Below, one piece after another: positions 7,261 to 59,754 of a stretch of 64,000 bases of DNA (position 1 is its first letter; every line of letters begins with the position of its first letter). Origin of the DNA: Pinibacter soli (lineage in GTDB: Bacteria > Bacteroidota > Bacteroidia > Chitinophagales > Chitinophagaceae); the NCBI RefSeq assembly GCF_029961145.1, contig NZ_JASBRG010000005.1:372001-436000 (forward strand), in the 5' to 3' direction. Below the pieces are notes generated by a model, which searched no databases, was not told the DNA's origin, and was given only the letters and a program-made list of their open reading frames with translations. A program made the position numbers and the translations under genes.

Positions 7261-9122
<1,862 letters not shown>

Positions 9123-58511: not shown

Positions 58512-58531
58512 ATCATGTAGAAAAAAAAGAA

Positions 58532-58547
58532 GGTGGTAGAAACCACC
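58532..58547 (-). terminator. Hairpin GGTGGT-AGAA-ACCACC
   Basis: A 6-bp stem with a 4-nt loop, followed on the minus strand by an 8-nt T-run after CTTC. It suits termination of the minus-strand gene ending at 58665, though 118 nt beyond its stop. Confidence 0.6.
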
Positions 58548-58664
58548 CTCGTAACACATGAGAAAACAATAACTGCCTCGATATTTTAATTTCCGTGCCC
58601 GACAGTTGACCGGAAATATTTTGCAAAATTATCACATAATAGTCATTCGAAATCAGACTACAGA

Positions 58665-59315
58665 TTAATAAATGGAAAAATGTTTTTGCATTACACCGAG
58701 CAATACGGTATTAATGTCATCGTTTCTGTAATTATACCTGAACTCACATTCTTTAACGTGCAGATATAGCATATTCTTGTGCAATCCGCGAAACTTTACC
58801 ATTCTATTTTTGGTATCGTTCCAAAAACAAAAGATGTCGTCCTCAGCCACATCACTACTGTTTTGAATGCTGAATAGTTTCCAATTCTTGAAATCAGCTA
58901 CGGCATGGAAGTTTTGCAGCCTGTATTGATCGAGGCTGTGATCATTACTTACCATTTGTCCATTACCGTTTTCAGGCTTTTCTTTCCGTTCCAGTGAGCT
59001 GGCAAAAACCTTTCCATTGTGCCAATGAAAACCGTAGAGCGTCTGGTGCCGTTCTGGTCCATTTTCATAGTCGTCGCTTTCCTTTTTGAGGTAAACAACT
59101 GAATGGTTTTTTGAATAATTGGAAGATGGGTTCTTTTCCTCACAATGTCTGGCTATACGCAGGCGAATAGTTCTGAAATAATTGTTTACGGTAACCCTAC
59201 TAACTCCTGTGAGGTTTGCTATCTGTGTAGCAGTGAGGTCTTCGGAGAAATAGCGAAGAATATCCTGGCTTTTTCCTTCAGATAAGTGGGCTCCTTTTAG
59301 CATACTGTTCTTCAT
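58665..59315 (-). CDS. IS1595-family transposase-derived protein with lost catalytic residues
   Basis: The 216-residue protein starts at ATG 59315 (MKNSMLKGAHLSEGK); a TTG-initiated form with 15 more residues is also open. The N-terminal part (SQDILRYFSEDLTATQIANL and VSRVTVNNYFRTIRLRIARH) matches the HTH region of IS1595/ISXO2 transposases. The C-terminus (RMVKFRGLHKNMLYLHVKE, then CEFRYNYR) matches their end. Between these, the DES motif around the first catalytic Asp reads KKES, and the GIENFW motif that holds the third acid reads DDIFCFW. The middle aspartate may survive as ND in MVSNDHSLDQY. The frame is intact and no terminal inverted repeats were seen, so domestication is likelier than an active IS. 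Confidence 0.75.
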   Translation of the reverse strand: MKNSMLKGAHLSEGKSQDILRYFSEDLTATQIANLTGVSRVTVNNYFRTIRLRIARHCEEKNPSSNYSKNHSVVYLKKESDDYENGPERHQTLYGFHWHNGKVFASSLERKEKPENGNGQMVSNDHSLDQYRLQNFHAVADFKNWKLFSIQNSSDVAEDDIFCFWNDTKNRMVKFRGLHKNMLYLHVKECEFRYNYRNDDINTVLLGVMQKHFSIY

Positions 59316-59568
59316 TTCCGGGTAGTTCAGGTGTAGTTTTACGAAAAATTTCGCACTCAAATTTTTTACTAATTCACTGCAGCAAAAACATAAAATACAT
59401 CAACGGATTATTTTATGGGTTGAGTGAACATACAAGATCATTTTATAATGTATGACGCAATGAATTAAAAAATGTTACAGCAAATGTTGACAATGATCAA
59501 GGCAAAAACGTTGGATGGCAATTAAGAAATAATCTGCGTGTTTTTGGGAGGATGAGCGGTAGGAAAAG

Positions 59569-59754
59569 AATTGAAAATTGAAAGTTGAAAAATGGAGAAC
59601 GGAACGCGGATTTTCATGATCGTCATGATTTTTACGATTCCAAAAACAGCAGCCTCAATCGGCAACTAAAAAAATCTTAATCAATCATCAAAATCATGAG
59701 AATCTGCGTTCTATTCTTCCCTCATTTTCAACTTTCAACTTTCAATTTTCAATT
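59569..59754. repeat. Nested repeats: GGAACGCGGATTTT pair inside a TTGAAAATTG pair
   Basis: Outer arms are AATTGAAAATTGAAAGTTGA (59569-59588) and TTTTCAACTTTCAACTTTCA, continuing to 59754. Inner arms are GGAACGCGGATTTTCATGAT (59601-59620, to about 59639) and AATCATGAGAATCTGCGTTC (59692-59711, from about 59673). It lies between the IS1595-like gene and the FAA hydrolase gene. The remaining 200 bp towards the transposase-like gene show no other gene. Confidence 0.7.

Follow-up and report, generated by a model that had tools for sequence, protein, structure and literature searches.

A domesticated, catalytically dead IS1016-type transposase of the Chitinophagaceae and its linked sRNA-like element: a probable DNA-binding regulator with a possible role in SusC-mediated import

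TldR proteins have their origin in TnpB, and to our knowledge bacterial DDE transposases that turned into host regulators have rarely been documented. The TldR proteins, TnpB-related RNA-guided transcription factors, are likewise transposon-derived regulators of surface components (PMC13418256); they nevertheless belong to a protein family unrelated to the one studied here, in which we saw no sign of an sRNA guiding the protein. Domestication has also been suggested in the same superfamily for eukaryotic Merlin/IS1595-type transposases, some of which do not conserve the DDE residues (passages of PMC8101967). These cases differ from ours in being eukaryotic, and the same passages name no linked sRNA or nutrient genes. 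The IS1016 group, described in that part of PMC8101967 as being without an N-terminal zinc finger, has the signature E-DESYFG(53)VYTD----Y(24)HINGIENFWSQAK(14)LFIKECEFRFN (PMC12561309). On the RNA side, the FopS sRNAs of Bacteroides act on the start codon of SusC and thereby repress its translation, and the RNA-binding protein RbpB acts with them (PMC11697453). A limited literature search returned no report of domesticated bacterial IS1595 proteins or of SusC-linked transposases.

The window analyzed here is a 64,000-nucleotide stretch of the Pinibacter soli genome (contig NZ_JASBRG010000005.1, positions 372,001 to 436,000). It harbors a gene, for which we use the working name GENE, with its ATG at 59315 and its stop codon at 58665-58667 (Table 1). 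Public profiles recognized the protein poorly: the IS1595 profile NF033547 matched its C terminus only (E=1.9e-5; 24.7 bits, below the curated score of 75 bits), Pfam returned generic helix-turn-helix (HTH) models only, and a search of the genome for Pfam PF12762 gave no match. We describe the family through its close relatives, using a 26-sequence alignment (A1) searched against 394 sampled Chitinophagaceae genomes. Counting as members the rows with E<=1e-45, we found the family in 60 genomes and 16 genera, nearly always once per genome. GENE is single copy in its own genome, and orthologues with 94-95% identity are encoded in the closest two named records (Chitinophagaceae bacterium 26-R-25 and Pinibacter aurantiacus MAH-26).

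Table 1. Features of the GENE locus, in window coordinates.
Feature	Position	Strand	Evidence
GENE, catalytically dead IS1016-type transposase-derived protein, 216 aa	58665..59315	-	ORF; family and orthologues; catalytic residues lost; dN/dS
N-terminal helix-turn-helix, residues 1-63 (predicted helices 13-24, 29-36, 40-61)	59127..59315	-	AlphaFold2 model; fold alignment; dN=0
Degenerate RNase H-like core, residues 64-153, predicted without first catalytic strand	58857..59126	-	Model vs intact relative; alignment columns
Conserved C-terminal helices, FW...K.RMVKFRGL...LYLHVKECEFRYNYR	58668..58856	-	26-sequence alignment A1; dN=0 in genus
sRNA-like element: seed TTTTCTCATGT (58566-58556), terminator hairpin (about 58550-58529), T-run	58521..58570	-	Covariance model; covariation; position
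Candidate sRNA promoter of the Bacteroidetes type, -33 TTTCG, -7 TAATTTTG	58624..58652	-	Three Pinibacter genomes
Dyad TGCGAAATTTTTCGTA just upstream of GENE, candidate operator	59340..59355	-	Upstream sequences alike in several genera

Searched across the phylum, A1 also retrieved intact relatives with DESYFG...HSDGW...HINGIEGFW, which fit the IS1016 signature of PMC12561309 and are in some cases multi-copy (seven matches in one genome, G576). The nearest of them carry GGGTC-type inverted repeats of 16-19 bp, about 735-750 bp apart. The GENE family profile matched intact IS1016-type elements with E values from 1e-61 to 1e-23, and in the tree the family formed one clade (support, 0.85) nested among intact elements; it descends from IS1016-type (IS1595-family) transposases. 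The family shares with the IS1016 group the HTH, the C-terminal FW...K...L.KECEFRYN block, a length of about 216-230 aa, and the absence of a zinc ribbon. However, it has lost the catalytic D, D, and E, lacks inverted repeats, and sits as a single copy at a fixed locus. Separately, about 14 IS1595 matches occur in one genome (G342), where the copies that we inspected (L084, L085, L086, and L087) resemble zinc-ribbon proteins without the usual VDE motif and have differing neighbors.

In the alignment with intact relatives, all three catalytic acids are present in 25 of 25 intact sequences, whereas D1 is kept in 0/60, D2 in 2/60, and E3 in 4/60 Chitinophagaceae family members. An earlier note, made from the letters of the window, had recognized an IS1595-type HTH and C terminus, a frame open for over 210 codons, no terminal repeats, and the loss of two of the three catalytic acids. 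The IS1595 likeness proved real, being weak by public profiles and strong via close relatives, and the frame is open not only in GENE (216 codons) but in every family member. Loss of the acids was also confirmed, although its extent had been underestimated: aligned to the 25 intact relatives, GENE has all three replaced (D1 by S, D2 by Y, and E3 by F). We rejected the aspartate of a VADF motif as a second catalytic residue, since it aligns with a noncatalytic position of the intact elements. No inverted repeats bracketing GENE were found in the window, and the GGGTC-type repeat of the intact relatives did not occur there above chance. Because the catalytic residues are lost, a non-transposing role of GENE, as the note had proposed, is supported.

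The gene order radC(+)-prs-rplY-pth-fah-[E1 dehydrogenase]-GENE is kept, by our count, in 39 loci from 12 genera. The labels radC, prs, rplY, pth, and fah presumably apply throughout, as they were assigned by similarity to the window's own genes; the E1 dehydrogenase was named via Pfam. Distances between GENE sequences followed those of prs/rplY/pth/fah (r=0.92, 37 genomes, 0/1000 permutations), also with one genome per genus (r=0.57, 22/5000 permutations). Within Pinibacter, dN/dS was 0.028, with dN=0 in the HTH and the C terminus, and in a second genus (g179) it was 0.060 over 36 pairs, again with dN=0 in the HTH. These comparisons demonstrate that GENE is inherited vertically at a fixed chromosomal place in the Chitinophagaceae and that purifying selection on it is strong; conservation is highest in the HTH and in the C-terminal helices. 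They are in good agreement with the earlier note, which had expected orthologues at the same locus to keep the substitutions with dN/dS below 1. Neither close homologues with intact acids nor frameshifted copies in unrelated positions, the outcomes that would have spoken against it, were what we encountered: the family has lost its acids, its frames are open, and its locus is shared. GENE combines a single copy, a fixed locus, purifying selection, and lost mobility, the marks of domestication, and we consider it almost certain that it is a domesticated, catalytically dead transposase.

A DNA-binding role, which the earlier note had also proposed, is predicted from the conserved HTH and its fold. 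The AlphaFold2 model of GENE (mean pLDDT, 77; pTM, 0.78) has the HTH and the C-terminal helices intact. A fold search with the whole model found nothing that matched confidently over the full length. Good alignments were confined to the HTH region, whose counterparts were DNA-binding domains, those of the Tc3 and IstA transposases among them; the rest of the protein may still have a distant relative in fold. We infer that GENE is probably a DNA-binding regulator. Upstream of GENE, no k-mer stood out clearly above shuffles, and upstream conservation within Pinibacter did not exceed that of neighboring genes; autoregulation therefore stays an idea. The intergenic region upstream of GENE also contains, at 59569-59754, a 22-bp inverted repeat without mismatches (AATTGAAAATTGAAAGTTGAAA) and, inside it, another repeat; the two sister species match this stretch poorly.

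On the GENE strand downstream of the stop codon, 9 of 16 genera share the 10-mer TTTTCTCATG; in shuffles, no 10-mer reached more than 3. An element with the layout TTTTCTCATGT, short linker, G+C hairpin, and T-run lies within 350 nt of the stop codon in 42/61 loci, representing 10 genera. Across a 28-sequence alignment the seed UUUUCUCAUGU is invariant, 93.8% of the hairpin cells pair, and 7 of the 8 pairs show double changes (0/500 shuffles); sliding the pairing register destroys the covariation signal. With the covariance model, the copy next to GENE was located at 58523-58570 (E=1e-14 in its own genome). Rfam gave no match at the gathering score for this stretch. The candidate promoter with the -7 box TAATTTTG lies 67 nt ahead of the seed in Pinibacter, and the -7 consensus was not found in the other genera. 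In one genus (g9), the seed begins 10-20 nt past the GENE stop codon and would thus belong to the GENE 3' UTR. By alignment and position, most genera have a conserved sRNA-like element directly after GENE and on its strand.

The architecture is that of FopS (PMC11697453): a single-stranded seed is followed by an intrinsic terminator, the seed is complementary to the susC start region, and several copies exist per genome. Unlike FopS, whose query sequence contains GTTTTTCATAGT, the element has UUUUCUCAUGU as its seed and no Rfam match at the gathering score, and one of its copies is fixed beside a transposase-derived gene. Complementing the seed gives ACATGAGAAAA, in which codons for Arg-Lys come after a start codon. 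As an 11-mer the seed is not overrepresented in its own genome (14 occurrences versus 11 for the reversed control). Apart from the element itself it occurs 13 times, four times at a start codon of the SusC type (L222, L223, L228, and L229, SusC-like by reading of the N terminus), and the window sRNA is antisense to three of these, confirmed as SusC by similarity, over 15, 12, and 13 nt. In another genome (G831), a SusC start (L237) shares 20 nt, AGAATTTTTCTCATGTGACT, with the GENE-linked sRNA; the codon-synonym control there, 0/23 SusC starts versus 2/17, involves small numbers and is suggestive only. Allowing up to 2 mismatches, the 16-mer TGTTTTCTCATGTGTT matched 27, 25, and 16 times in the three Pinibacter genomes, versus at most 5, 10, and 8 times reversed (5, 10, and 5); among the matches are the two sRNAs as well as start codons, of SusC and of other genes. 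By base complementarity, an invariant sRNA sequence, followed by a terminator hairpin as in FopS, is antisense to some susC mRNAs at their start codons. A start-codon context in common use (ATG AGA AAA) could account for part of this match.

SusC-type receptors start less than 700 bp downstream of GENE on the same strand in 19 loci from 6 genera, with a SusD homologue after susC in the loci where we looked for one. A diverged second GENE copy precedes susC in two g9 genomes. We had expected the GENE-adjacent SusCs to be orthologues, and rejected this: they are of several unrelated types, often with 24-47% identity between groups, and three types occur within one genus (g7). Two loci show a further arrangement. 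In L168 (G890), two strong sRNA copies (2271-2318 and 7506-7553) bracket a susC/susD region, and in L175 (2899-9994) susC/susD are bracketed by two GENE copies, as if SusCD cassettes had been gained or lost by recombination.

Degenerate IS1016-type relatives also exist in other families. In one group (L195-L202), 8/8 loci have a divergently oriented gene for a TonB-dependent receptor and, after it, an HmuY-like gene; heme genes follow in those loci that were read, and in L196 the next operon members are HemS and a periplasmic binding protein. From this gene context, these proteins are possible heme-uptake regulators. In several loci of a third degenerate group (f12), the divergent neighbor encodes a giant secreted protein; in L203, L204, L205, and L208 this protein measures about 1446-2017 aa within the stretch read. 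A fourth group (f38) keeps its acids in part. The joint clade of all degenerate groups had a support of 0.44, and they may reflect one or several domestications, a single origin being neither supported nor excluded.

Our main reading, to which we give a probability of roughly 0.6, is that a dead transposase has turned into a DNA-binding regulator coupled to a SusC-silencing sRNA, as a switch for outer-membrane nutrient import. The GENE protein would most likely bind DNA via its HTH and would probably regulate its own promoter and the linked sRNA, or else neighboring SusCD operons. The sRNA would pair at susC start codons and block SusC translation, as FopS does in Bacteroides, so that both together would form the switch. 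The genus g7, which has susCD yet no recognizable sRNA element, speaks against this reading. For the link of GENE and the sRNA to SusC taken by itself, we would call the odds even. More tentative, and somewhat short of even, is the broader proposal that the protein and its FopS-like sRNA jointly control SusC importers and that IS1016-type transposases were repeatedly domesticated beside TonB-dependent receptor operons (SusCD and heme uptake).

The alternative that survives best is that GENE, though domesticated and DNA-binding, serves an unrelated function, for instance in the nucleoid or in repair, that the sRNA is an independent neighbor, and that adjacency to SusC reflects chance or an insertion hotspot. 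Most GENE loci are indeed not beside susC, among them that of the window, where the next gene is a convergent ABC transporter and no susCD is adjacent. Furthermore, some adjacency is expected because each genome has many susC genes (59-309 candidates at first look). Assuming that about 3% of genes are susC, seven independent susC configurations would have a probability of ~2e-5 among 30 and ~2e-3 among 58; we estimated both this rate and how many events were independent ourselves. Extra sRNA copies also occur away from GENE, one of them conserved in all three Pinibacter genomes, and a strong match (L306, 8061-8105) is present in a genome in which GENE was not found (G006). On the other hand, the best sRNA match lies at or near GENE in most GENE-bearing genomes searched, and in three genomes (G360, G396, and G948) where susCD follows GENE, the sRNA is found beyond susCD on the same side. 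The position of the other degenerate lineage at heme TonB receptors in every locus also speaks against mere chance. We regard an unrelated function as unlikely.

It is improbable that the GENE protein is an RNA-binding partner of the neighboring sRNA instead of a transcription factor. The linkage of the two in 10 genera and the precedent of RbpB with FopS (PMC11697453) would fit such a partnership, but the conserved domain is an HTH of the DNA type, sRNA copies occur without GENE, and g7, in which susCD is present, keeps GENE without a recognizable sRNA element. Very improbable in our view is a recombinase still active via other residues. The IS1595 asparagine position is occupied by an acid (D or E) in 55/60 family members, the following K/R is conserved as well, and the SusC types beside GENE vary as if cassettes were exchanged. 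However, D1 and D2 are lost, and the family has not spread in multiple copies. In the GENE model, residues 67-89 and 114-125 have a pLDDT below 50 and form no strands, whereas an intact relative modeled likewise has a first strand (69-77) carrying D73, the first catalytic aspartate, and a strand (132-135) leading to D136. The first catalytic strand is thus predicted to be missing from the GENE core and present in the intact relative. Finally, that GENE is a decaying, functionless insertion-sequence remnant, as its missing catalytic site and terminal repeats might suggest, is hardly credible, because dN/dS is low (0.02 to 0.24 across all genera), the frame is open in 60 genomes, and the locus is the same in 12 genera.

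Returning to GENE as a regulator coupled to a SusC-silencing sRNA, if the sRNA part is true, start-codon silencing of SusC importers would extend from the Bacteroidaceae to the Chitinophagaceae and would be tied to a transposase-derived protein. The heme-operon group suggests that IS1016-type transposases were recruited repeatedly beside outer-membrane receptors, and the origin of regulators from mobile DNA would therefore be directly testable. Together, GENE and its sRNA suggest a new kind of home-grown feeding regulator.
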